The position numbers and the translations under genes were made by a program. From IMG/VR virus record IMGVR_UViG_3300019756_000006, positions 1-33,044 of that record: a stretch of 33,044 nucleotides of DNA; one strand, 5' to 3'. Shown piece by piece: positions 7,305-30,046 of this stretch. The DNA comes from a virus. How positions within the stretch are numbered: position 1 is the first letter of the stretch; each line of letters begins with the position of its first letter. The notes below the pieces were generated by a model. The model saw only the letters and a list, made by a program, of their open reading frames with translations, had not been told where the DNA came from and made no database searches.

Positions 7305-9332
7305 TTATCCAATAGAAGCTCCTTCAATTGTACTACGTTCAAGTTCTTGTGCAGTAGATATATCAGATGCTACAACGTATGCTCTTAATGGTTGTTGTTC
7401 GGCTTGTGATATTGTTTGAGCAAGTTGACTTGTCTGTGTTGCACCTACTACATTGAAAGCTGGTGGAGCTATAGGAGCTGAACCTCCTCCTCCTGAACTA
7501 ACTCCAGCTAAAGGACCTGATAATGCTTTTATCTGCTGTTCTGCTTTTTTTCTTGCAGTTGCTATTTGTGCTATTACACCACCTATCATTGCGGCATAAG
7601 CTATAGGACCAGCTATAGGACCTAATTCAGTTAAAAATTTACCTATAGAACCAGTAGCTTCAGCTGTTTGTTTAGCTCCTGTACCAATTACTCCAGCTAA
7701 TAATGTTTTACCTTGTAATGCTAATTTAGCAAGTTCTAAACCAGCTTCAAGTTGAAACATATCTCTTTCAAATTTTATTTGTTGTATTCTTATTCTTCTT
7801 GACTCTTTGTCATTTTGTTTTAATAACCTATCTTTTTCTTGTGCAGTAATATTATCATTATTTAAAATAATATCTCTTTCTGCGTCCAATCTGCTGACTT
7901 GTGCATCAAAGGCTTGTGATTGTATTTGAGCAAACTGACCAGCTTGTTGAGTTATAAAAGAAGCTAATTTTTCTTGAGCTGCTATTCTATCTTCAATTCT
8001 TTTTAAATCTTTTTGATGATTCTCTTCAGCTAAATCATCCTCAAAATTTCTTTGTCTTAATCTTTTAAGAAATGCTTCTTTAAGAGTTGTTTCTTTCTCT
8101 TCTTCTCTTTTCTTAAAAGCATTTACAGATTCAACTTCTTCTCTTTCTTGTACACCTTGAAGTTCATTTAATTCATCTTGAAGTTCTTTTATTCTTAATG
8201 TGAACGAATCATATTCTTTACCCGTGGTTGCTGTTTCATCTCTTAATTTTTCTAATACTTTTATTTGGCTCTCTATAGCTTTAACTGTGCCTTTTATAAT
8301 TATTTCCGCAGGAGATTCTTCTTCTATTTCTTTAACTTTTAATCCTATTAAAGAAGCATAAAAAGGATTATCTTTTATAGTTGGGTCATTAGTTATATCT
8401 TCTATACCATTTTTAAATGCTGCATTTATAGCGGATATACTTGCTTCTGTTGTTTGTAAAGAAATTTTAGCATTTTCAATTTCTTCTTTAAGACCTTTTT
8501 CCTGAAAAAGTAATGTACGTAATCTCCTTTCATCTTCTTCTGAATCAATTTCTTTTCTTTTAGCAGCAACTTCTGCTTCCTTTGTTGCTATCAATTCTAA
8601 TTGCTCTGTTCTCTTTCCTGTTAATTCTTCAATATTTTTTTGTCTTTTTTCATCTTCCGCATCTAAATCTTGTTTTATTTTATATGCTGCTATAAAATCT
8701 TCTAAAGAGCCTTTTGTTTCATCGAATCCTTCTTTTTGTAATTTAGCAAGGGCAAACTGCTGTTCTTCTATGCTTGAGTTAGCATCTTTTAACATTTCAG
8801 CAAAAACAAAAACACTCTCTCTTAAACCTTCTCTCCTTTTCATTGCATCAGCTAAATCATCAGCAGCTTCCTCTGCTTTTTTAGCTTTACCAGCAAAAGC
8901 ATCTAAAAGAGATATAACAACTTGAAAAGCAAGAATAATACCAAGAGGTCCACGAAGTGCTTCGTCTATAAGCATTTTACCAGCAACTTTAACTTTATTA
9001 AATCCTTTTACACTATCATCTACTTTTGCTACAAGAGTTACAAATAATGTGGATAATTGAGATAAGTTGTTTGCTACACCTCGAATACCATAAGGCATAT
9101 CCGAAATAGTACGACCAAGCTCTGTTAATGCAGCTCCTGCTAAACCAGTATTTCCAACTAATTTATCTCTTCCAGATAATTCTGTGTTAAATTCTTTTGT
9201 AGTTTGTGTAGCTTTTTTTAATTCTCTATCGAATTTTTTTACACTAACTTCGGCATCTCCAATTTTTCTTTTAACTCCTGTATCATCAAATATGATTTGG
9301 AATATTATTTCATTTTTTTGCTGCGTAGCCAT
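7305..9332 (-). CDS. Tail tape measure protein
   Basis: This 675-residue protein has the typical layout. The N-terminal region, FDDTGVKRKIGDAEVSVKKF, is followed by LGRTISDMPYGIRGVANNLS. There is a hydrophobic helix around 120-150 (GPLGIILAFQVVISLLDAFA), long charged coiled coils through about residue 540, and then a Gly/Ala-rich membrane-like segment (GPIAGPIAYAAMIGGVIAQI) around 575-600 ahead of a low-complexity Ser/Gly end. Tape measures set tail length and help DNA entry. At about 0.15 nm per residue, 675 residues would suggest a tail near 100 nm, which is an inference. It is short for the family but intact, and its start overlaps the 52-residue gene upstream. Confidence 0.8.
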   Translation of the reverse strand: MATQQKNEIIFQIIFDDTGVKRKIGDAEVSVKKFDRELKKATQTTKEFNTELSGRDKLVGNTGLAGAALTELGRTISDMPYGIRGVANNLSQLSTLFVTLVAKVDDSVKGFNKVKVAGKMLIDEALRGPLGIILAFQVVISLLDAFAGKAKKAEEAADDLADAMKRREGLRESVFVFAEMLKDANSSIEEQQFALAKLQKEGFDETKGSLEDFIAAYKIKQDLDAEDEKRQKNIEELTGKRTEQLELIATKEAEVAAKRKEIDSEEDERRLRTLLFQEKGLKEEIENAKISLQTTEASISAINAAFKNGIEDITNDPTIKDNPFYASLIGLKVKEIEEESPAEIIIKGTVKAIESQIKVLEKLRDETATTGKEYDSFTLRIKELQDELNELQGVQEREEVESVNAFKKREEEKETTLKEAFLKRLRQRNFEDDLAEENHQKDLKRIEDRIAAQEKLASFITQQAGQFAQIQSQAFDAQVSRLDAERDIILNNDNITAQEKDRLLKQNDKESRRIRIQQIKFERDMFQLEAGLELAKLALQGKTLLAGVIGTGAKQTAEATGSIGKFLTELGPIAGPIAYAAMIGGVIAQIATARKKAEQQIKALSGPLAGVSSGGGGSAPIAPPAFNVVGATQTSQLAQTISQAEQQPLRAYVVASDISTAQELERSTIEGASIG

Positions 9333-9468: not shown

Positions 9469-12176
9469 TATTCGTCTGTTTGGTCTGCTGTTATATCTGT
9501 AGTATCTACACTATATAAGTTTGTATCTACTGTTAAATTACCTGGTGTTGGAGTAGGTGTTGGTGATACTGAACAAGTTGCATTGTATGTTAAATTATTT
9601 TCACCACCCATATATCCGTGATTTGCACATTCATAACTTATTGTTTCAAAATCACCTAAAACTGTAACTGTTATATCTCCATAATAATATGTATATGTAT
9701 TTCCATCTAATCCTGTTTTAGTAACCGATGCAGTAGTACCTGTATATGTTATTAAAGATTCTTTTCCGTTATTATGAAATGCTATAGGATGTGTGGAAGG
9801 AATATCACTAAAAGTATATGTGCCAGTAGCCATTTGATAATTTCCATATTTGTTATCAAATATATATAAGTAACCTCCAGTAATAGTTTCTATCCTAACC
9901 TCAAATATAGAATTAAGACATAAATAACTTTTAGTTGCATAAGTAGAAATTAATTCTAAATCTGACCTACCTGTTACGATATCTAAATTTATTTTATTTA
10001 TATTATATTTTTCTCCTGAAACAATAAAAGTATCTGCTAATGAAAAATTACTGATAAAAGAATTACTAAATACTCCTTTAAGTTTTATTAATCTTTTCTT
10101 TGGATTAAATACAGAATCTATATAGTTTTGATAATATAAAGAATACAAGTTTTCTTCATAACTTTGAGAGTTTGCAATATTTGCATCATATTCATTTAAT
10201 TCTGCTCCAAAATGATTTGTTTTTGATATATCAGTACTTACTGCGTTGCTTGGTATAAAATATGTTGTAACATACGAGTAATCTCCTCTATTATTATAAA
10301 CATAAGGTATTGCTTGAGATGGAGATGATAATAATATAGGGTAAAATAAAACAGGTTTTCCTATATATGGATTATATCTTTCTTGTGTACCAACTTCTAC
10401 ATCATCATTTGACCTTGTTACACTTAATCCTGTTTGTATATCTGTAAAACTTCCTGTTGAATTATCTTTCAGTTTTTCAAACTTCATATGTCCGAAAGGA
10501 GGTTTTATCTCATATATAGATTCATATCTTTTATCTCCAACCTCATATCCTTCTCCACCCCAAGTTATATTATTAGTTTTTTTATGTTGGTCTGCAAGTA
10601 ATGAACCTGTATCTTCATACTCAAAATTAATTTTAGTATAAGGAAGAGCTTTATCAATCTTACTTGACGATACATCTATATTTGAAGTTATATCTGTCTG
10701 TACATTTGAAGATGTATAAAAATCATCAAGAGTTTTAACTACTACTGTTTTTTGAGTAGGTGAATCATTTCTAACTTCTGCAACAAGATTAAACATTTTA
10801 AATATTCCTGACATAAATTGAAGTATAGTCATATCAGGAAAGTTCTTACTAATAAAGAAATTACTTTGTTGTGGAGTTGTTATTGTATCTGCTGTTCTTG
10901 TTTTATTATCTACATAAACACCATAATCTTGTTCAATTCTTGCAATCAACTCTAAATTAAATGCTGTAAAAGTAATAGGATTTGCTGCTGTTGTTGTTAT
11001 AATAAACTCATAATCTCCATCATCAAAATCCATTTCTAAATAGCTACTAATACCTGTTTGAGTTTGTTTTGTATATGTTTTCCAAGTAGAACCATTCCTT
11101 TTGACTGTTAAATCAAATTCTGTTGATGTATTTGAACTAATTAAACTTAATCTACCTATAACAGAATCTACTCTATCGTTATCACTTATAGTTATCTTTA
11201 ATTTACTTCCCAAATCCCCACTTGTGTCTCCTGCGTCATTAAAGAACTTTGCTTTATATGCAAGTGCTGACCCATCTGTATAATAGGCATTAATAGTTCC
11301 TATAGAAAAAGTATTTATAGTTGTATCTACTTTATCTGTTTCAATAGCTCCTTCTTTTTGATGAAGCCACATATATAAATTATAATAATCTAAATTATTT
11401 GAATTAAAAAAGTCAGTAGAGAAATTAACACTAATATTTGTCGTGTCATCTGATAATTGATTTGACATAAATTTTTCTATTGCCTTTATGATTAAATCAA
11501 TTCTTACAGCTGGTTTTAATTGTTGCCAATCAAGTCCATTGTATTTTGAGTTTTTAGGATAATCTATTGGATTATAATATAAATTACCATCTGCTAATGT
11601 TCCATAATAATCTGGACCTGAATCATAATATAATCTGTCAGAATGAGTTATAAGAGGAACTACTATAGGTTGAGTGTATGTTGTTGAATCTACTGTAAAA
11701 TTTTTAGATGTAGTTAAATAATCTCTTACACTATCTGTTCCAGATGTATCTACAGCTCTATATGTAATGGAGAAATTATCTAACCATTCAAGTTCAGAAA
11801 GTTTACTATTAGAAAATAAATCATTTAATAATCTTAAATTACCATAAAATGTTACTCTATAAGAATAAGGTTTATTATATTTCAAATCAACACCCTCCAA
11901 CATTATATATCCTTCTCTAAATACTTTATTGTTTATTTCTATTCTTGCTTCTACAGTCTTCCTTGCATCAAATCCTCCTATTATATTATAGTTATAATAA
12001 TGTTTAAATATTTTATTATTTTTACTCGAAGCAGGTAAAGTAAAATTACGGCTAAAGTCAGTAAATATTTTAGCTGGGTCTTTTACATCTTTTATAGATG
12101 ATTGAATATTAATTGAACCACTATCAAAAACATCTACTTCTTGATTATTTATAAAAAGCTGTACTTTTTGTTTCAT
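9468..12176 (-). CDS. Large tail-tip/baseplate protein with cupredoxin-like C-terminal domain
   Basis: This is a 902-residue protein. The N-terminal region (VQLFINNQEVDVFDSG, KIFTDFSRNFTLPASSKNNK, FREGYIMLEGVDLK) is typical of the long tail proteins just before the tape measure in flavobacterial phages and probably forms the distal tail or baseplate hub. Residues about 757-860 form a separate domain with THPIAFHNNG and, later, ISYECANHGYMGG. A His followed by Cys-x2-His-x2-Met matches copper ligands in the cupredoxin fold and recurs in marine phage tail proteins. A (TP)3 linker follows, and then the acidic motif LTVDTNLYSVDTTDITADQT, shared with the gene at 340-507. Copper binding is unproven. 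The domain may simply be a stable carbohydrate-facing fold. Confidence 0.7.
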   Translation of the reverse strand: MKQKVQLFINNQEVDVFDSGSINIQSSIKDVKDPAKIFTDFSRNFTLPASSKNNKIFKHYYNYNIIGGFDARKTVEARIEINNKVFREGYIMLEGVDLKYNKPYSYRVTFYGNLRLLNDLFSNSKLSELEWLDNFSITYRAVDTSGTDSVRDYLTTSKNFTVDSTTYTQPIVVPLITHSDRLYYDSGPDYYGTLADGNLYYNPIDYPKNSKYNGLDWQQLKPAVRIDLIIKAIEKFMSNQLSDDTTNISVNFSTDFFNSNNLDYYNLYMWLHQKEGAIETDKVDTTINTFSIGTINAYYTDGSALAYKAKFFNDAGDTSGDLGSKLKITISDNDRVDSVIGRLSLISSNTSTEFDLTVKRNGSTWKTYTKQTQTGISSYLEMDFDDGDYEFIITTTAANPITFTAFNLELIARIEQDYGVYVDNKTRTADTITTPQQSNFFISKNFPDMTILQFMSGIFKMFNLVAEVRNDSPTQKTVVVKTLDDFYTSSNVQTDITSNIDVSSSKIDKALPYTKINFEYEDTGSLLADQHKKTNNITWGGEGYEVGDKRYESIYEIKPPFGHMKFEKLKDNSTGSFTDIQTGLSVTRSNDDVEVGTQERYNPYIGKPVLFYPILLSSPSQAIPYVYNNRGDYSYVTTYFIPSNAVSTDISKTNHFGAELNEYDANIANSQSYEENLYSLYYQNYIDSVFNPKKRLIKLKGVFSNSFISNFSLADTFIVSGEKYNINKINLDIVTGRSDLELISTYATKSYLCLNSIFEVRIETITGGYLYIFDNKYGNYQMATGTYTFSDIPSTHPIAFHNNGKESLITYTGTTASVTKTGLDGNTYTYYYGDITVTVLGDFETISYECANHGYMGGENNLTYNATCSVSPTPTPTPGNLTVDTNLYSVDTTDITADQTDE

Positions 12177-13311: not shown

Positions 13312-13890
13312 TTACAAGAATTTGTAGTGAACAAATAGGTTGTTATAATAAGTTCCTTGAAAAGGTTCAAACCTTGCGTGAGAACAAGCTGCAGATTCAT
13401 ATATTATCATATCTCCAGGTTCAGCATATATCTTGTGCCAATTTCCTTTATGGTCTTGTATATCAAGAGGCCAATCATCTCCAAATTCTTTATTTCTACA
13501 CCCACATCTTAAATCTTTATCTACAACAATGATTGACGCAATATGATGAGTTTCTACTCTATCTTTATGTTCTGTTAAAGTAGCTCCTCTTTTATATGAA
13601 CGAATACCATATACATAACTTGGTTCTATATCAACTTTACAGAAATCTTTATGTAATTCTAATAATCCTTGATGAATTTCATTTCTTACATTTAAAGGCA
13701 TTTGTATAATGTGGCTTATACCACTTCCTTTTATATATACATCCTTACCTTGAAATTGTTCATCTGATTCTGTTGATTTTAGACTTTTATATGTCTTTTG
13801 TATTAAATTCCAAACATCATCTGGACATTTAATCACTTTAAATCCTGTTTCTGTTAATTTAGGTATTTGCTCGTAACTTGTATATTGCAT
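13312..13890 (-). CDS. 2-oxoglutarate/Fe(II)-dependent oxygenase, prolyl-hydroxylase-like
   Basis: This protein has 192 residues from ATG 13890; a TTG two codons upstream also exists. Visible in order: YGIRSYKRGATLTEHKDR with iron ligands His108 and Asp110, a strand ASIIVVD, PWPLDIQDHKG-type (DWPLDIQDHKGNWHK), EPGDMIIYES, and the second His171 in CSHARFEPF, ending in YYNNLFVHYKF. This is the double-stranded beta-helix oxygenase pattern of a clade including marine eukaryote and virus proteins annotated as prolyl 4-hydroxylases. Such enzymes use O2, 2-oxoglutarate and ascorbate to hydroxylate a side chain or small molecule. It lies between the adhesin gene with Thr-Pro linkers and the tail-tip genes, which suggests a virion protein substrate (inference). 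Confidence 0.8.
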   Translation of the reverse strand: MQYTSYEQIPKLTETGFKVIKCPDDVWNLIQKTYKSLKSTESDEQFQGKDVYIKGSGISHIIQMPLNVRNEIHQGLLELHKDFCKVDIEPSYVYGIRSYKRGATLTEHKDRVETHHIASIIVVDKDLRCGCRNKEFGDDWPLDIQDHKGNWHKIYAEPGDMIIYESAACSHARFEPFQGTYYNNLFVHYKFL

Positions 13891-13908
13891 ATACAAATAT
13901 AATAAAAA

Positions 13909-16900
13909 TTAACAAACAGTTAGTTGAGTTATTTCTCCTGGATTATTTTCACCTATTCTAAATGAATAACCTGTATTTGACCTAACATAATTTGTACTTG
14001 TGGGTGTATATAGATTAGTTAATGTATCATTTGTATATAAGTAAGTTCCATTTGAAAGTGTTCCAGAATAAGCAAGTTTTACATCAAATACTGATATGTT
14101 AGAACAAGCTGCAACAGCTGTTGTTTCTGTAGAACTCGATACTTGAAATTTATTAATTGTTGGAGTAGGAGTAGGTGTTGGAGTCGGTGTAGGACTAACA
14201 GCTTCTTCACACTGGTCACAATTTGTATATTGAATTAAGTTTGCTACATTCACATTTGAGTCAAGTCCTGCACTACCTAAATCTTGCATACATAATCCAT
14301 TATCATTAATTACTGCTGGCCAATTGCTACCTAAATCTGTTATACTTCCATAATCTTTTACAATATCAAGACCTCCAGTAGCACAATCACCATATTGTCT
14401 ATAATAAGATATTGATGGAGTTGGTGTTGGAGTTATAGTAGCTAAACAAGCAGCACATCCAAAATATGTATCTGTAAAAGTAGATATGTCTGGTGCGTCA
14501 GTAACTTCTACATCATCTAAATATTCTTTACATACATTATTTACTGTTTTTATTACAAGAGATGTAGATATTTCTCCAGTTGAACGAACAGCAGTTATAT
14601 TACCTCCATCTTCATTACAATCAATAAATCTTGCATAATAATATACAATTGGTGTGGGGGTTGGTGTAGGGGTTGGGGTTATTCCTTGACATTCTTCACA
14701 ATTTGTATATGGTTGCTGTCTTTCTAAATCAGTCAACTCTATATTAAAATATCCTGAAGGTAAAGTATATGTATCTTCAAATGTTTGTATAATTTCATAA
14801 CAACCTCTTCCACCTGTTTGACCCACGTCTTTTATATCTAAAATATAAGTTGATGTTTCTCCTGGTTGATTATATTCAAATCCATCAAATCTAAAATATT
14901 CATAATTTCCAGTATCACATCTTCTTGCAAGTAATCTTTGTTCTGTAGGAGTCGGAGGAGGTGTTGGTGGTTCTCCAGCACATCCAAAATTAACACAACC
15001 ACCTACAGTTCCATTTATCTGTACATATCTAAAATTAGTTCCATCAGAATATGTTCTTCCACCTGTAGCTAATGTAGTTCCTGCTGCATCACTATAAAAT
15101 TTAGTTGCAGTACAAAAAGCTGTTGTTCCATTTCTATCTGGATATAATGTTGTAGAATCACTTGAAGTACAAGCATTAATATCTGCAGAACCAGAAGTTG
15201 TGTATGTAACAGAATAAGAATAACTTGCCCTTGAATCCCATTGTATTAAATAATCGGTATCTGCTGAATAAGTTCCATTTACAACTACATTATAATAAAT
15301 ATTTCCAGTTGTTGTCTGGTCACTAAAAGTATATGTTTGAGAAGTGGCTCCTGATATATTAGATAAACTTCCTGGTGAAGTTCCTTTTTGCCATTGATAA
15401 CTTATTGTTCCTGATAAATTAGACACACTTGCGTTTAATGAAACTTGTTGAGATGTAAAGGCTTGTACAATTCCACTACCATCTGAACTACTTGCTGTTA
15501 TAATAACTTCAGGAGTTAATGCTACTTCACAAGTTTCTACTGGTGATTCTCCTATTGCAAAACCACATTGGTCAATAGTATCTACTTTTCCTGCTGGAGA
15601 TGACAATACTCTTGCATAATAAGAAATTAAATTACCATCACAGTTTGGTATTAATAATTTAAAATAATTTCCTGTTCCTCCAAAAGGAGAAGATAGTGAT
15701 TCATTATTAAATAACTGAACTCCTGTTTGTATTTGACCTGAATAATATACTGTTTTATCTGCTACTAAATCACAAGCAGTATCACCTGAAGGTCCAGGAT
15801 TTGCTGTATCTAAAGATGATATAACTATTGAATTTGTTCCGCTTGATTGAAAAATATCTTCTTTTGTTACTGGAGTTGGACATTGATTATAGTTTGTTAA
15901 CTCACCAGGATTATTAACTCCTATTCTACCATAATAACTTCCGGTAGTTCCTATTTTATAATAATTACCAGATGATGTATATGGTTGCGTAAGTTGCATA
16001 TCTTTATATAAAATCACACCACTACCAAAAGTTTGTCCAGATGCAAGTCCATAATGAGCATCTTCAGTTGCTGTTTGACTACAAGCATTTGTTGCATTAG
16101 AATATCCTAACTGGCTAACTAAAATTGTTTGAGCCTGATTTTGATTACTATCACTTATAACTACAGATATACTAACTTCTGGTGATATATTATTAAGTTT
16201 TAATGTAAATGTTTCATCTCCTTCAGAAGAAAAATCATCAACAGGTTCAAATGTAGCTTGAGCTGTGTTATTATTTACAACAAAAGCTCCTACTAAAGAA
16301 CCTCTCTCTAAATCTGATGCTGATACACCACTTATTGTAAAAGGAACAGAAACTCCATTTTCTACATTTTCTGTGTTTAATGTTATAGTAAAAGTATTTC
16401 CTTCAAAAACATTAGTTGCAGTTGATGATAAATAGTATTGTGGCTGTAAATCTTCACCAAGAGATACCTCTCCAGATAAAGTAGCTGTTTCAGTTACATT
16501 TGCACCAGAGAAAGTTCCTGTAATCGGTGATGAAACGCTTAATGTTAAAGGAGTATCTACATCATATCCTGTATTACCAGCTACAGATACACTAAATGAA
16601 TAGCTTGTTGTATCTTCTCCAGTTATTCTTGCTTCTAAAAATCCTGTAGTAGGATTATATTGTAATGTAGGACTTGAAGTTATTGTATAACCTGCAGGCG
16701 GTCCTATAATATTGTTTGTTACTTGAAGTAGTGCTGTATATTGAACATTTGTTGACCAGTTAACATCTATTGTTGCTGGATATTCATTTCCTGCTGAATC
16801 AAAAGCTGTTACTCCATATTGTATTGTAGAATTTACAGTTCCAGTTTCCGTAAAGTCAATTTGTTTTAATGTACTTCCAGCAGCAGTTCCTCCTGTCCAT

Positions 16901-17100
16901 AAATAAGATGAAGGTGTAAAATTAGTAGCAACAACTTTTAAAGATATATTAGTTCCGTAAACACCAGACACTGGTCCTTCTTCATCTCCAGTTTCTGTTA
17001 CTTTAACTATTTTTACTGATGCGTTTTCTATTGTACCCCCGTCAGCTCCTGATGCTACAACGTAATAAGGACTTCTACTGTTTACTTTGACTGTTGCCAT
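13909..17100 (-). CDS. Modular tail adhesin with Calx-beta, Ig-like and Cys modules joined by Thr-Pro linkers
   Basis: This 1063-residue protein has N-terminal beta domains (1-215) and a Calx-beta domain at about 218-320 (VFEGNTFTITLNTENV, FEPVDDFSSEGDETFTLKLN). A repeat of type B has the pattern AC...GvxLYxd...GNYYKIG...RIG-NNPGE-T...C. Copies lie at about 338-405, 441-508 and 644-705 (divergent), with a fourth at 990-1063. An Ig-like domain lies at 520-620. A repeat of type A has Cys near the start and C-x2-C at the end (YTNCEECQG, YFGCAACLA, YTNCDQCEE). Three copies lie between 720 and 965, separated by PTPTPTPT linkers. Such proteins usually sit at the tail tip and bind host surface glycans. 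The neighbouring oxygenase could modify its Pro or Thr residues. Confidence 0.75.
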   Translation of the reverse strand: MATVKVNSRSPYYVVASGADGGTIENASVKIVKVTETGDEEGPVSGVYGTNISLKVVATNFTPSSYLWTGGTAAGSTLKQIDFTETGTVNSTIQYGVTAFDSAGNEYPATIDVNWSTNVQYTALLQVTNNIIGPPAGYTITSSPTLQYNPTTGFLEARITGEDTTSYSFSVSVAGNTGYDVDTPLTLSVSSPITGTFSGANVTETATLSGEVSLGEDLQPQYYLSSTATNVFEGNTFTITLNTENVENGVSVPFTISGVSASDLERGSLVGAFVVNNNTAQATFEPVDDFSSEGDETFTLKLNNISPEVSISVVISDSNQNQAQTILVSQLGYSNATNACSQTATEDAHYGLASGQTFGSGVILYKDMQLTQPYTSSGNYYKIGTTGSYYGRIGVNNPGELTNYNQCPTPVTKEDIFQSSGTNSIVISSLDTANPGPSGDTACDLVADKTVYYSGQIQTGVQLFNNESLSSPFGGTGNYFKLLIPNCDGNLISYYARVLSSPAGKVDTIDQCGFAIGESPVETCEVALTPEVIITASSSDGSGIVQAFTSQQVSLNASVSNLSGTISYQWQKGTSPGSLSNISGATSQTYTFSDQTTTGNIYYNVVVNGTYSADTDYLIQWDSRASYSYSVTYTTSGSADINACTSSDSTTLYPDRNGTTAFCTATKFYSDAAGTTLATGGRTYSDGTNFRYVQINGTVGGCVNFGCAGEPPTPPPTPTEQRLLARRCDTGNYEYFRFDGFEYNQPGETSTYILDIKDVGQTGGRGCYEIIQTFEDTYTLPSGYFNIELTDLERQQPYTNCEECQGITPTPTPTPTPIVYYYARFIDCNEDGGNITAVRSTGEISTSLVIKTVNNVCKEYLDDVEVTDAPDISTFTDTYFGCAACLATITPTPTPSISYYRQYGDCATGGLDIVKDYGSITDLGSNWPAVINDNGLCMQDLGSAGLDSNVNVANLIQYTNCDQCEEAVSPTPTPTPTPTPTINKFQVSSSTETTAVAACSNISVFDVKLAYSGTLSNGTYLYTNDTLTNLYTPTSTNYVRSNTGYSFRIGENNPGEITQLTVC

Positions 17101-17560
17101 TTATTTGTTCATTTAAATCTTTTAAATAACTCTCTTCTATATCTTTTGTTAAAGATGCCATAATATTTTTACTTACAAAATCAATAAATTTAGAGCCTTG
17201 ATTCCCAAATCTTTCTATAGTTCCTTTATTTGCTATTTTTTTTGCAATCATCCAAGCAATATCTCTTAACCTATTAACTCTTTTGTATTTTATATTTGAA
17301 GATGCTCCGATAGCAGAACCTTTATCTTCAACCCACTGTAATATTTTACTTACTGGAGGCATTTTTCCTGGTCCTCTTCCCTCTTCTACAAATATTCCAT
17401 AATCTTGAGCAAATATATTAATGCCTGTTTGAGTTACTACACCGTAAATACTATCTCTTAATCTTTTAGATGCAACTAAACCTTGCTGTGTAAGGCGGTC
17501 TTTTAGTTCTTCTACAATTTTATCTTTGTATTGTTCTAATGTAGCTTGAACTCTTTTCAT
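17075..17560 (-). CDS. HK97 gp10-like neck/tail-completion protein
   Basis: This protein has 161 residues from the ATG that shares a base with the preceding TAA (TAATG, 17560). The pattern is that of the gp10 family: a helix (MKRVQATLEQYKDKIVEEL), KRLRDSIYGVVTQTGINIFA, QDYGIFVEEGRGPGKMPPVS, ILQWVEDKG and a helical end with AWMIAKKIANKGT. The YGIFVEEGRGPGKMPP motif is very characteristic. Gp10-type proteins close the head-tail joint. The gene overlaps the adhesin start by 26 bases. Confidence 0.75.
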   Translation of the reverse strand: MKRVQATLEQYKDKIVEELKDRLTQQGLVASKRLRDSIYGVVTQTGINIFAQDYGIFVEEGRGPGKMPPVSKILQWVEDKGSAIGASSNIKYKRVNRLRDIAWMIAKKIANKGTIERFGNQGSKFIDFVSKNIMASLTKDIEESYLKDLNEQINGNSQSKQ

Positions 17561-18021
17561 TAACAAAGAGATAATTCATTATTAGGAACTTCTATGTTTA
17601 CTGTCATTCCCCATCCAGCTAATTGATTCTCGAAGTTATCTTGAAATGGTTCAGCAACTACATTTGTAGTAATTTGAAAGTTATCAGAAAAAGCAGAACC
17701 TCTTCTCATCTCTTGTTGCAAATCATTTACCACCTGTAATTGAGTGTTTAGGATGTCTTGTAAGTTATCATTTCCAAACATCATATCTTCAGTTTCTTTA
17801 TTCTTATTTACATCTACTACATCTAAACACAATATTCTAATAGAAGCTGACATAATTCTTTCCTCAAATGTAACATTACCAAATACAATATGACATAGAG
17901 GAAATATACTTGTTTTGTTTAAGTCAACCTCTGTAATGTCACCGAAGGTGACGGTTTTTGTAATTCCATTTGCTCTTAATATTTCTTTTATTTTATCTAA
18001 TACTGTATATACTTGTCTCAT
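17560..18021 (-). CDS. Tail terminator/tail-completion-like protein
   Basis: This 153-residue protein begins MRQVYTVLDKIKEILRANGI. It contains FPLCHIVFGNVTFEERIMSA and then a beta-rich section ending WGMTVNIEVPNNELSLC. The pattern of a helix followed by a strand ASIRILCLDVVD and a C-terminal beta pair is typical of small neck proteins (tail terminator/completion) in Bacteroidota siphophages. Its start ATG forms an ATGA overlap with the stop of the -1 frame of the tail chaperone, which couples the two. The exact neck position is not certain. Confidence 0.5.
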   Translation of the reverse strand: MRQVYTVLDKIKEILRANGITKTVTFGDITEVDLNKTSIFPLCHIVFGNVTFEERIMSASIRILCLDVVDVNKNKETEDMMFGNDNLQDILNTQLQVVNDLQQEMRRGSAFSDNFQITTNVVAEPFQDNFENQLAGWGMTVNIEVPNNELSLC

Positions 18022-18805
18022 TTTATATTTTGTTTTATCATTTTAGCTTCTAATTCGTTTTTCTCTCTTTCAAATTCTAACCAGGTTAAACATTGAGAAA
18101 TGGGGAGTTTTGTAACTTCTTCAAATTTGCTGACATCTCCTCCAGCGAGTGCGTAAATTGACTGATACCAACCCCACTTTGCTCCAAATGTTGCTTGAAA
18201 TCCGAGTCCTCCTTCAGATGTTTCGCTAAAGAGTCCATCAAATGTTTCGACAATTCGGTCCCTAAACTGTAAAAAAAAACCATCGCTCCAAGTGCAGCCT
18301 GTATAGGCGAGTCCAACATTACTTCTGCATATTTATCAGAACCCTCATAATCCTCTATTAAATAGAAATTATTCTTCTGGTGTATTACAGGTCTATATAA
18401 TACTGCCATTGCTTTATGCATCTGTTGCCAATCTGAAATATATTTTTCTAAATCTATAAACTCTCCCATTGATATATCATCTAATTTAGGAATAAAGCCA
18501 AAAGTAACTTTATTACCATCTTTATCTACCATATCAAATTTATTATGTAAGGTATGTTTAGTGTTAAACAATTCATTTATATGATTTATTACAGAATTAA
18601 ATTCTGTCATAGGTAATTTATAAGCCTGTTTTAAATTAACACCACAAAAACATTCTAATAGTTTTAAATTGGCAAACTCTATTTCCTCTTGTGTAGGTTC
18701 TTCCTTTTCTGTTAATTTAGCTACATCCTTTATATACTTTTGATATTGACTTAACTTAATATCTTGCAGAGATGTAGGGATGTTTAGTGTGACCGTATTA
18801 CTCAT
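18018..18805 (-). CDS. G-T tail assembly chaperone fusion made by programmed -1 frameshifting
   Basis: Ribosomes slipping back one base at the T-run (minus strand GTTTTTTTTTACAG, Ts at 18279-18271) would join residues 1-178 of G to 84 residues in the -1 frame, giving 262 residues. I read the hidden frame as LQFRDRIVETFDGLFSETSE and then GAKWGWYQSIYALAGGDVSK, LPISQCLTWLEFEREKNELE, ending NIK. WGWYQSIY-LA-GD-----VT-LP---CL--L-FE is a classic T-domain signature of tail chaperones in Bacteroidota siphophages. Its TGA stop (18020-18018) overlaps the next start as ATGA. A T-TTT-TTT heptamer lies at 18278-18272. G and G-T proteins bind the tape measure while the tail tube forms. Confidence 0.85.
18086..18805 (-). 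CDS. Tail assembly chaperone G (unshifted product)
   Basis: The zero-frame product has 239 residues. It starts MSNTVTLNIPTSLQDIKLSQ YQKYIKDV and includes NLKLLECFCGVNL and IPKLDDISMGEFIDLEKYI, as in flavobacterial siphophage chaperone proteins. After V176-F177-F178, the zero-frame tail (YSLGTELSKHLMDSLAKHLK to SPFLNV) is unlike the rest and reads through DNA that also encodes the better-conserved -1 frame. It is the first gene of the late operon, following a 590-base leader region. G is made in excess of G-T in well-studied phages; that ratio is not visible here. Confidence 0.8.
   Translation of the reverse strand: MSNTVTLNIPTSLQDIKLSQYQKYIKDVAKLTEKEEPTQEEIEFANLKLLECFCGVNLKQAYKLPMTEFNSVINHINELFNTKHTLHNKFDMVDKDGNKVTFGFIPKLDDISMGEFIDLEKYISDWQQMHKAMAVLYRPVIHQKNNFYLIEDYEGSDKYAEVMLDSPIQAALGAMVFFYSLGTELSKHLMDSLAKHLKEDSDFKQHLEQSGVGISQFTHSLEEMSANLKKLQNSPFLNV
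18271..18283 (-). other. Programmed -1 frameshift slippery site
   Basis: The run is nine T residues on the minus strand (nine A at 18271-18279), preceded by ATGG and followed by ACAG. Zero-frame codons are GTT TTT TTT TAC. The heptamer T TTT TTT fits the X XXY YYZ rule, and the -1 frame continues into the T domain. Confidence 0.85.
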
Positions 18806-18882
18806 ATTATAATAACTTTATATTTATATTATGTACTAAAATACGAAAATAAAACAAAATCAAAAAAGTTAGTTATATTATC

Positions 18883-19051
18883 GAAGAGTTTCTGAAGACA
18901 TAATTTTTCTTCGAAGATTATCATTTGAGACTCTTCTCAAAAGAAATAAGGTTAGGTTTAGGATAACTATGTTTCATAGAAACCTTTCATTTAATCTGAA
19001 TTTTTCATATAAGTGTTTTGAAGCTCTGAATCTCTTTCAGGGCTTTTTTTT
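18883..19051 (+). ncRNA. Candidate structured small RNA, antisense to the late-operon leader
   Basis: Three nested or adjacent structures are visible. (1) GAAGAGTTTC at 18883-18892 pairs with GAGACTCTTC at 18927-18936, with one G-U pair, around an inner hairpin at 18900-18921 (ATAA/TTAT and TCT/AGA). (2) GGTTT 18955-18959 pairs with AAACC 18980-18984, and CTATG 18967-18971 with CATAG 18975-18979, with a seven-base bulge. (3) The terminator hairpin is at 19022-19044, followed by eight T. The T-run is on the plus strand only, which gives the direction. The 5' end and promoter were not found: no TAnnTTTG lies within 60 bases upstream. It would be transcribed against the 5' leader of the tail/head operon. 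Confidence 0.45.
19022..19051 (+). terminator. Plus-strand intrinsic terminator
   Basis: On the plus strand AGCTCTGAA (19022-19030) pairs with TTCAGGGCT (19036-19044) through nine pairs including one T-G pair, with loop TCTCT, followed by eight T residues ending at 19051. The minus-strand version is not followed by a T-run. No protein gene on the plus strand would need it. Confidence 0.75.
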
Positions 19052-19102
19052 GATATCCCTTTGAATTTTCTTAAATGGAGAACTCACCCACCCAATTTTT
19101 AG

Positions 19103-19136
19103 TTTTACGTGACTTTCCTTTATTTTACGTCATTTT
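19103..19136. repeat. Two direct repeats of TTTTACGT, candidate operators
   Basis: TTTTACGTGACTTT (19103-19116) and TTTTACGTCATTTT (19123-19136) are 20 bases apart start to start, about two turns of the helix. They lie just downstream of the promoter-like box at 19147-19140 and may bind a regulator of late transcription. This is an inference. Confidence 0.45.
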
Positions 19137-19139
19137 ATC

Positions 19140-19147
19140 CAAATTTA
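19140..19147 (-). promoter_or_regulatory. Candidate late-operon promoter -7 box
   Basis: The minus strand reads TAAATTTG, an exact match to the Bacteroidota -7 consensus TAnnTTTG. A clear -33 TTTG is missing; TTTT occurs 17 bases upstream. It is the only exact match I saw between the accessory-operon terminator and the first late gene. Confidence 0.4.
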
Positions 19148-19272
19148 CTTATTGAGTTGAGTATAAAAGATATTTATAAACGTGTTGAATTTATAAGTAT
19201 TTTTTATATATAAATTTAAACTATATCTCATTAACAAATGATTAGCAAATTTTATAATTTTATTTTAAAGCG

Positions 19273-19289
19273 TTTTAAGGGCCTTAAAA
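19273..19289. repeat. Short inverted repeat TTTTAAGG-G-CCTTAAAA
   Basis: Eight bases are mirrored around a single G. It shares the GGGCC core with the terminator hairpin 30 bases away. It could be a protein binding site or a remnant of a second terminator. Confidence 0.4.
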
Positions 19290-19319
19290 TATTAATCTAT
19301 AATAATAGCTGCAGGGCAT

Positions 19320-19344
19320 AAAAAAAGGGCCTAAAAAGGCCCTA
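19320..19344 (-). terminator. Intrinsic terminator closing the accessory-gene operon
   Basis: On the minus strand AGGGCC and GGCCCT form a six-base stem with a six-base loop, followed by seven T. It lies 54 bases beyond the stop of the last accessory gene at 19398. Confidence 0.85.
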
Positions 19345-22458: not shown

Positions 22459-23667
22459 CTAACGTATCACATAAACGCCTTTATTTGCGTTGGCGAGGAA
22501 ATATTGTGCAGAGTATCGAAGTGCGTCTAACTGATGGTTCCATTTGTCAACAGGTCTTTCGTTCCTCTCATGCCAAACGTAATTATTCAGCTCTTTTATT
22601 AGCTCTGTACTATCAGCGTCAATTACTAAATCAAAGTCTTGAACAAGAGCAATCCCTGACAGAATAGACCCACTGCGTTTAACGGTTGGTTTTATATTAC
22701 AATACTCTTGAAGTTCTGATATAAGTCTTGGTTCTGCGTTATCACAGATAATTAAATCTTCTCCTGCATATCTTCTATTGAGTTCTCCTATTTCTTTTGT
22801 AGATAATCCTGGCTTTGCATACATTGTTTTAATCCACATAGTTTTTCTATCTCTATCTATTGCTACTTTTATAAGTGTTGTTGGGTCCACAGAAAAACCA
22901 AAGTCTTGACCGTATATAGAATCAGCATTATCATTAAACATCCCTATTGTCCAATTAGAAAATACAACTCCTTCTGCCTTATCGAGCCATCCTCCAAGTA
23001 TCTGGTGGTTGTATCTATCTGGCCTTCTGCGTCTTATATCTTCAAGTTGAAGTAAAAATGATTCTGATAGATTTTCTATATTATCTTTAAATGTAGTATG
23101 AATATAAGTTACATTATCTTTATATCCATTATGTCCTGCGTTTACTGCTTTACCTGCAAAGAATCTTTGATATATCCAATGTTCTTTAGTAGCTGGGTTT
23201 AATATCATAATAACTCTATTAGGTTTAGCTTTACTTCTTACTGATTGGTCTATCTTATCAAAGTCTTCTTCTTTTACAAGCTCTTCTGCTTCATCAAGTA
23301 CCCAAGTAGTAATCCCACTAATAGACTTTAAAGCTGCTGTTTGATTCCCTGCAGAAGTTCTAATTCCTTTAAACAATATTGAACTACCTGTAGATATATT
23401 TAATATTTCATCTTTAGTTATACGAAAATGTTCCATTATACCATACAATTCTAACTTTTCCAAAAACTCTGGAATAATCGAATTGGCGGCAGATATCATT
23501 GTATAACGAGTAAAAAGTATCTTGTGTCCCTGTTCGAACGTTAGAAAGGCTAAAAATGTGGTTATAGCGAATGATTTACCACTTCCTCTACCTCCTGTGA
23601 TTACAAAGTACCTGGTATCGTTACCAAGTGCATTATATTTCTTGTTCAGTATCGGTTTCTTCATCAT
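22459..23667 (-). CDS. Terminase large subunit
   Basis: This 402-residue protein is the packaging motor and nuclease. Walker A is at residues 25-32 (GGRGSGKS) and Walker B at about 122-126 (WVLDE, with D125-E126). The RNase H-like nuclease acids are D255 (YGQDFGF), D309 (IICDNAEP) and D381 (NHQLDALRY). The architecture and length match PBSX-type large terminases. Start codons at 23667 and 23664 are both possible. It overlaps the small terminase gene by 35 bases. Its last codons run into repeat array 2, and residues about 328-331 (PTVKRS) are encoded by another copy of that repeat. Confidence 0.93.
   Translation of the reverse strand: MMKKPILNKKYNALGNDTRYFVITGGRGSGKSFAITTFLAFLTFEQGHKILFTRYTMISAANSIIPEFLEKLELYGIMEHFRITKDEILNISTGSSILFKGIRTSAGNQTAALKSISGITTWVLDEAEELVKEEDFDKIDQSVRSKAKPNRVIMILNPATKEHWIYQRFFAGKAVNAGHNGYKDNVTYIHTTFKDNIENLSESFLLQLEDIRRRRPDRYNHQILGGWLDKAEGVVFSNWTIGMFNDNADSIYGQDFGFSVDPTTLIKVAIDRDRKTMWIKTMYAKPGLSTKEIGELNRRYAGEDLIICDNAEPRLISELQEYCNIKPTVKRSGSILSGIALVQDFDLVIDADSTELIKELNNYVWHERNERPVDKWNHQLDALRYSAQYFLANANKGVYVIR
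22672..22682 (+). repeat. Single ACTGCGTTTAA inside the terminase gene
   Basis: ACTGCGTTTAA occurs in the C-terminal part of the large terminase coding sequence, identical to the arrays about 220 bases away and in the same orientation. It may be a coincidence forced by codons (Thr-Val-Lys-Arg-Ser) or part of a packaging recognition site. Confidence 0.55.
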
Positions 23668-28803: not shown

Positions 28804-29213
28804 TCGTATTGAAATTGTACTTTTATTTTGTCTTCTGGCCCATAATATTTAGCCATATTGTTTATTTCTACTATATTTTGGTCTTGCTCGTAAATAAGCC
28901 CTTCTAACGCATCAAAAAATGCTTTATTAAGATTATCTTGTAAATCTGGTTTTGTTACTTTAGGAGCCTTTAAAATACGCTTATTCTTGCTCATACTCTT
29001 TGGGTACGCATAGATATATTCAATGTAGTTTACTTTGATAGGACATCCAGCAGGTATTATGTTGAAGTCTTTAGGCAATTGATTTTCTATTAAAGTTCGT
29101 ACATATTTTTGATAATCCAAAACTTTTTTGGGTTTATATTTAATTCCACCTCTTCCAAATCTTACAGATTGATGAGCCAGTGGACGTAGGTTAAGTTCAA
29201 AAGATATTATCAT
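28800..29213 (-). CDS. RusA-like Holliday junction resolvase
   Basis: This is a 137-residue protein. The RusA signature is KPDLQDNLNKAFFDALEG (D90, D93-N94, D101), followed by the acidic site DQNIVEI (D111). These acidic residues bind Mg2+ and cut four-way DNA junctions near recombination and replication intermediates. The N-terminal section (ISFELNLRPLAHQSVRFGRG) has the usual RusA strands. The size and spacing match the family well. It overlaps the ATPase gene by four bases. Confidence 0.85.
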   Translation of the reverse strand: MIISFELNLRPLAHQSVRFGRGGIKYKPKKVLDYQKYVRTLIENQLPKDFNIIPAGCPIKVNYIEYIYAYPKSMSKNKRILKAPKVTKPDLQDNLNKAFFDALEGLIYEQDQNIVEINNMAKYYGPEDKIKVQFQYE

Positions 29214-30046
29214 ATATTTAAAAAAGGTTCTCTGTTTATTGATTGTGGAAGACTGTCTTGTATATATGGAAGTCCGTCTGATTCAATTCTAAATGCAAAA
29301 TCTTCAAATGGATAACCTCTTGCTCTTCTACATTTAACTACTGCTAAATCTCTATCATCTGGAGATAATTGTAAACTTATTTGGGTTTCAGTTTTCTTTT
29401 CCATAAAAGACCCTAAATGTCCAGTTGCTTTATCACTATTAAAATTAGAATGTATTACAGTTATAATATGTATATTTAAATCTTGTGTCCATTTCATTAA
29501 GTATTGTATAAGTTCATTAGATTGAACTAAATCATTACTGTCTAATATTAAATCAGCAATACCATCTATAATTACAAGACCTGGATTATCTACATTATAT
29601 AAATGCCAATTAATAAATTCTAATCTTTCATAAGCAGAATATTCTCTCAAAGCATAACTATAATAATCAGATGTATCTTCACACATTCTAACAACTCTAT
29701 TAAAAGTTCTTTGAGCATGGAATCTTCCTTGTTCTGTATCATAGTGTATTAATTTTTTCTTCTTTCTACTTCCTACCATATCCTTTGTATATTTCTTATC
29801 ACACGATAAATATGCAGCAGCAAGTAGCGAAACCAGGAAAGTCTTTTTACTTTTAGGAGCAGCAGATATGAAGCTAAAATTCCCATAGGTTCCTAATGGT
29901 AAAGGTATAGGATTGTTTCCACCTGTTTCACCTTTCGAGATAGCGATTGGAGGATATTCAATCTTTTCTTGTGGGTCGACATAGCTTTGCTGTAATATTT
30001 TTTTGAACCTTTCATTGTAATCTAATTGAATTTGACTCATTTTCAT
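29210..30046 (-). CDS. RecA/DnaB-fold ATPase, RepA-like replicative helicase candidate
   Basis: This is a 278-residue RecA-fold ATPase. The P-loop is unusual: SAAPKSKKTF at residues 61-70, where the consensus GxxxxGK[ST] is replaced by AAPKSKKT. Lys68-Thr69 remain, so ATP binding is plausible. HYDTEQ (residues 101-106) carries the acid that activates water; LVIIDGIADLI at about 157-167 is Walker B (D161), and HSNFNSD is a sensor-like segment. This pattern matches RepA or AAA_25-type ATPases in Bacteroidota phages and probably makes the replicative helicase or loader. M1 or M3 (ATG 30046 or 30040) could start translation. Confidence 0.75.
   Translation of the reverse strand: MKMSQIQLDYNERFKKILQQSYVDPQEKIEYPPIAISKGETGGNNPIPLPLGTYGNFSFISAAPKSKKTFLVSLLAAAYLSCDKKYTKDMVGSRKKKKLIHYDTEQGRFHAQRTFNRVVRMCEDTSDYYSYALREYSAYERLEFINWHLYNVDNPGLVIIDGIADLILDSNDLVQSNELIQYLMKWTQDLNIHIITVIHSNFNSDKATGHLGSFMEKKTETQISLQLSPDDRDLAVVKCRRARGYPFEDFAFRIESDGLPYIQDSLPQSINREPFLNI

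Follow-up and report, generated by a model that had tools for sequence, protein, structure and literature searches.

Comparative evidence for a programmed -1 frameshift in a probable tail assembly chaperone gene of flavobacterial phages

The window, that is the whole stretch of 33,044 nucleotides analysed here (IMG/VR record IMGVR_UViG_3300019756_000006, a marine flavobacterium phage), carries on its minus strand a gene with a run of nine T's, for which the earlier note had proposed a hidden -1 frameshift producing a G-T tail assembly chaperone. This raises the question whether the gene encodes one protein or two and, if two, by which route the second is made and what the pair may do. The elements concerned are listed below.

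18086..18805, minus strand: zero-frame ORF (G), 239 amino acids, ATG at 18805 and stop at 18086, identified by phrog_32199 (E=5e-17) and by relatives
18271..18279, minus strand: nine-T run G-TTTTTTTTT-AC, codons 176-179 being GTT TTT TTT TAC
18272..18278, minus strand: slippery heptamer T_TTT_TTT in zero-frame phase, kept in relatives, with A_AAT_TTT instead in six loci
18018..18272, minus strand: -1 frame part (T domain), 84 codons and a TGA (18020-18018), with a WGWY motif
18089..18271, minus strand: stretch of 61 codons that belong both to the G tail and, in the other frame, to the T domain
18018..18021, minus strand: ATGA in which the T stop overlaps the ATG (18021) of the following gene, ATGA or TAATG-type junctions being common among relatives

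The individual elements that the earlier note had read in the gene were all recovered. Indeed, the nine-T run (18279-18271) and the in-frame heptamer (18278-18272) were both located, 84 sense codons were counted in the -1 frame before the TGA, this TGA overlaps the ATG of the following ORF, and both signature strings (WGWYQSIYALAGGD and LPISQCLTWL) were found in the -1 frame, which past the slip site encodes ...FGAKWGWYQSIYALAGGDVSKFEEVTKLPISQCLTWLEFEREKNELEAKMIKQNIK in the translation of the window. Residues 1-178, at the N-terminus, are common to G and GT, the distance from the slip site to the zero-frame stop is 183 nt, and a reading of the window revealed no start codon in the T frame between the slip site and the WGWY motif. 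Its place at the head of the late operon, given in the earlier note, was not established, as a same-strand terminase gene and small ORFs lie upstream of it.

That the open -1 frame is beyond chance, as had been claimed, was borne out within the window. When the zero-frame protein was kept fixed and synonymous codons were resampled according to the codon usage of the family itself, none of 1000 trials gave a -1 frame free of stops over the whole overlap. The ORFs of the window (approximately 10,000 codons) contain 72 in-frame heptamers of the type X_XXY_YYZ, four of which are followed by a -1 frame open for at least 60 codons, namely the G/GT site and three sites within approximately 16 nt of gene ends, where the open frame is that of the following ORF. 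Such a site is the T_TTT_TTA located approximately 16 nt before the stop of the ATPase-like 29210-30046 ORF; the gene next to this ORF lies in the -1 frame and overlaps it by ATGA. Taken as a control, this T_TTT_TTA turned out not to be conserved among relatives with 83-88% identity and is probably due to chance.

Relatives were collected by scanning IMG/VR with the G protein, which gave 42 of them, and by wider scans with hundreds of further matches, the best of which were kept. The gene pair also occurred on three bacterial contigs, labelled Flavobacterium, Psychroflexus, and Bacteroidetes bacterium, and a genome search within one bacterial family added two more bacterial copies. After removal of duplicates, 247 distinct loci holding both parts were retained, originating from many metagenomes, cultured phages, and bacterial copies. 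The T domain lies in the -1 frame in all 247. Homologous loci, which the earlier note had named as a check, keep both the heptamer and the -1 relation: T_TTT_TTT is in phase in 241 of them (T9 in 233 and T10 in eight), and the remaining six, from three lineages, have A_AAT_TTT at the identical two codons (GTA AAT TTT). With respect to locus L031, these lineages are 63% (L130) and 52-53% (L132-L135) identical. In addition, T occupies all three wobble positions of the run in each of the 112 T-run loci examined for codon usage, whereas elsewhere in those genes Phe is encoded by TTC in 190 of 966 codons (20%) and Val by GTT in just 378 of 1110 (34%). An in-frame fusion of G and T was found in none of the 247 loci, nor in further viral scans and approximately 790 bacterial genomes; as a single T insertion would join the frames, this indicates that the split is maintained. 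Some unnamed viral proteins of 240-267 amino acids in BFVD, among them A0A516L611, A0A516L5A8, A0A6J5N0W0, and A0A6J7WJY4 (243-267 amino acids), match the predicted models of both G and T, and may represent in-frame G-T fusions in other phage lineages.

Some more distant sequences deserve mention in their own right. In L259, a divergent bacterial-genome copy, nine T's are kept at approximately position 2004, the run being displaced by one base (GGT TTT TTT TTG) with the heptamer phase preserved. A weak match in G671 (L264) resembles a protein kinase and was considered spurious. In Flavobacterium phage 6H (L266), gp10 (10352-10927; 191 amino acids) ends in CFFYSTR with T_TTT_TTC, but the -1 frame stops at once and this candidate was rejected; further on, that frame reopens for approximately 100 codons.

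The manner in which the gene changes among relatives is consistent with translation in two frames. Substitution rates were calculated from 151 close pairs without length differences in zero-frame codon numbering, these pairs not being independent, so that no p-value is attached. Upstream of the slip site, the substitutions per codon position amounted to 0.097/0.041/0.273, which is the pattern of the zero frame; in the overlap to 0.077/0.152/0.125, which reflects both frames; and past the zero-frame stop to 0.054/0.198/0.062, which is the pattern of the -1 frame only. Thus, the fastest-changing position passes from the third position of the zero frame to that of the -1 frame across the gene, the overlap being intermediate. 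This matches the prediction for a frameshift, with both frames under protein-level selection as judged from the substitutions. The tail of G is probably under selection as well: in the window, it is open for 61 codons, compared with a median of 6 when codons were resampled with the T protein fixed (P 0.008), and across loci it measures 25-81 codons (median 62). The coding of both frames as well as the direction and site of the shift are therefore apparent from the comparison of sequences.

The best explanation, and a quite probable one, consists of a two-product G/GT gene that is decoded through a -1 slip of the ribosome, the chaperone role being assigned by analogy. Most ribosomes would stay in the zero frame and produce the 239-residue G-type protein, and a minority would slip back one base with UUU UUU (Phe Phe) of U_UUU_UUU in the P and A sites, resulting in a 262-residue GT-type protein of which the final 84 residues would form the T domain. 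Both the slippage of ribosomes at this site and its frequency are what we infer from the comparison. The heptamer alone would drive the shift, without a strong downstream structure or a Shine-Dalgarno-like stimulator. A downstream stem, which the earlier note had suggested to look for, was not found with folding models that leave pseudoknots aside: downstream folding was not clearly stronger than that of shuffled sequences in the window (z -0.65), there was no mean folding excess over 76 non-redundant loci (z -0.08 +/- 0.10), and no covarying stem was seen among 16 relatives. Similarly, a Shine-Dalgarno-like motif occurs upstream in ten of the 76 loci and is no commoner than at control offsets, which gave 0-20. 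A GGAG upstream of the site in the window was considered as such a stimulator and rejected, as it lies within two codons for Gly and Ala and shows no conservation.

Concerning the function of the two products, the genes around the pair are informative. The following ones are referred to below.

22459..23667, minus strand: terminase large subunit; its homologue in P12024S carries a terminase annotation and lies 3 bp ahead of the G gene
17560..18021, minus strand: next gene, 153 amino acids, phrog_30964, conserved directly or shortly downstream of GT
17075..17566, minus strand: 163-amino-acid protein with a weak tail-completion/Neck1 match (phrog_5)
7305..9332, minus strand: probable tape-measure protein, 675 amino acids, phrog_30292, which the protein annotated as tape measure in Flavobacterium phage 6H also matches

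A second basis for the tape-measure assignment is that the P12024S protein at the same place matches phrog_58. The order terminase - GT - 153 amino acids - (163 amino acids, often present) - ... - 902 amino acids - tape measure is conserved, the terminase large subunit being located 3 bp to 5.8 kb upstream of GT across loci. A position directly before the tape measure, which is customary though not obligatory for chaperones, was found neither in the window nor in relatives. Indeed, the distance of 8.7 kb given in the earlier note was measured as 8,686 nt from the GT stop to the tape-measure ORF, and this separation is conserved across the lineage, with a tape measure 5.7-9.0 kb downstream of GT in the window and in relatives in which it was detected over its N-terminal part.

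In lambda, many G and few GT proteins act on the tape measure, T recruiting the tail-tube subunits (PMC5009743). If the present phage resembles lambda and P2-type phages in this respect, its tape-measure protein would be bound by many G and few GT molecules, which would recruit tail-tube subunits during tail assembly and then leave, a role suggested only by architecture and neighbourhood. The product is thus likely a tail assembly chaperone (G/GT), an assignment by analogy that is based on the architecture, on the neighbouring genes, and on family matches that are weak or lack a name, and not on detectable homology with lambda G/T. No similarity to lambda G or T was found by hhalign, and neither Pfam nor NCBIfam placed G, T, or the scanned tail-gene neighbours in a meaningful family. 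The predicted models of G (pLDDT 79) and T (pLDDT 81) both match unnamed viral proteins; a PDB fold search with them yielded no interpretable relative, the rows for G covering only its helical C-terminus. Of what the earlier note had called a G-T tail assembly chaperone, the -1 frameshift is strongly supported and the chaperone role is probable.

The frameshift may also be real and its product not be a tail-assembly chaperone, but for instance a head-tail joining or packaging-associated protein. Such a function would suit both the undetectable relation to lambda G/T and the location of the gene in many loci, 3-54 bp past the terminase match and ahead of a connector-like gene. It is nevertheless unlikely, as the two-product -1 architecture and the place in a tail-gene run constitute a known chaperone pattern, and as there are weak matches to the tail protein family phrog_166 (three members) and, for the G model, to two BFVD proteins named tail assembly chaperone (ranks 37 and 40). 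More specifically, a stimulator-free U_UUU_UUU shift with a long dual-coded tail might control a non-chaperone pair at the terminase or neck step, which is quite unlikely.

Further features of the surrounding DNA were recorded. On the 5' side of the frameshift gene, approximately 500 nt (18806-19343) lack a long ORF, and a terminator-like GGGCCTTTTTAGGCCC-T7 hairpin (approximately 19343-19319) lies ahead of this ORF-poor stretch. It is a possible late promoter region, for which neither an Rfam match nor an exact Bacteroidetes-type promoter consensus was found in 18806-19343. Between 20894 and 22686, a direct repeat of approximately 20 nt of the type AAACCTACTGCGTTTAA occurs in two clusters with seven copies in approximately 1.8 kb, which looks like iterons or an operator array. 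An ORF between two tail genes (13312-13896) displays an H-x-D...H pattern that recalls 2-oxoglutarate/Fe(II) oxygenases and had no Pfam match. Lastly, 13909-17100 encodes a structural-looking protein of 1063 amino acids, in which PTPTPTP linkers recur between repeated units that contain cysteine.

With respect to the mechanism of recoding, slippage of RNA polymerase at T9 is a serious rival, as it would add a base to part of the mRNAs and result in the same two proteins. Transcriptional and ribosomal routes are both documented in bacteria (PMC5009743), the 9 or 10 T's in all 241 T-run loci are a plausible length for it, and L259 keeps nine T's despite the one-base displacement of the run against the codons. 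The A_AAT_TTT variant speaks against it on sequence grounds, since GTA AAT TTT, present in six loci of three lineages, contains no long homopolymer, yet offers a canonical X_XXY_YYZ in the right phase. Moreover, the nine-T length needs no separate selection, as in most loci the heptamer and the neighbouring Val/Leu and Tyr/Trp codons together give it. Polymerase slippage hence appears improbable.

A separate T gene with its own start, next to which the slippery run would be incidental, is represented in the annotation of the phages P12024S/L by a 55-amino-acid ORF of the -1 frame with an internal ATG as its start. This is very improbable: the slippery site is present in all loci, conservation in the -1 frame begins at the slip site itself (F, L, F ahead of any start), and in 120 of 184 loci the T frame contains no ATG, GTG, or TTG before the WGWY motif, which excludes a separate T start as a general route; an ATG between the slip site and this motif occurs in just ten of the 184. 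T9 runs are error-prone on some sequencing platforms, but the probability of a homopolymer sequencing or assembly error, or of a decayed single gene, is negligible, given that 247 loci, from many metagenomes and from cultured phages, show one and the same frame relation, that both frames are under purifying selection, and that the zero-frame tail extends over 61 codons in the window, compared with 6 as the median after resampling (P 0.008). The programmed -1 frameshift in this gene is thus strongly supported by comparative evidence, namely the conservation in 247 loci, the substitution patterns, the lack of a T start in most loci, and the swap to another canonical heptamer.

Frameshifting by -1 for tail chaperones is widespread among long-tailed phages (PMC5009743), and prediction tools for it exist, such as PRFect (PMC10885494). 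As in lambda gpG/gpGT (PMC5009743), the present gene consists of two overlapping ORFs with a -1 shift, an N-terminus common to the short and long product, and a tail-gene context. It differs in the lack of detectable sequence similarity, the slippery U_UUU_UUU, the zero-frame tail of 61 codons past the slip, and the location behind the terminase and apart from the tape measure. The tail chaperone frameshifts of the SEA-PHAGES set are of the same recoding type, mostly backward shifts, but the slip averages 26 nt from the zero-frame stop there, versus 183 nt here; the viral set of Atkins et al., with an average of 169 nt according to the same paper, is nearer (PMC10885494). The closest described counterparts are found in the cultured Nonlabens (formerly Persicivirga) phages P12024S (gp38/gp39; JQ823122) and P12024L (gp40/gp41; JQ823123), which possess a homologous gene with the same flanking genes and, in P12024S, a CTT TTT TTT TAT site, past which the T domain lies in the -1 frame. 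Unlike here, the zero-frame tail is shorter (25 codons) and the two parts are annotated as separate hypothetical proteins. Similarly, PHROGs holds the G and T halves as separate families (phrog_32199 and phrog_38404). A search mainly outside subscription journals retrieved no published description of the frameshift in this flavobacterial group.

The finding is a well supported case of the G/GT type that was previously unannotated in this phage group, and that combines three less usual traits, namely an extended overlap coding in both frames, the lack of a visible stimulator, and a distance from the tape measure that is conserved. It allows the annotation to be corrected, in that gp38 and gp39 of P12024S, and likewise phrog_32199 and phrog_38404, represent the two parts of a single product. 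Shine-Dalgarno pairing plays little part in flavobacterial hosts, which makes a site without a detectable stimulator a useful natural test of frameshifting by a heptamer only, and thanks to the A_AAT_TTT subclade two heptamers can readily be compared at the same site. With these phages of aquatic flavobacteria, a large group joins those with a G/GT-type frameshift, and the gene pair is seen to be separable from the tape measure by 6-9 kb.
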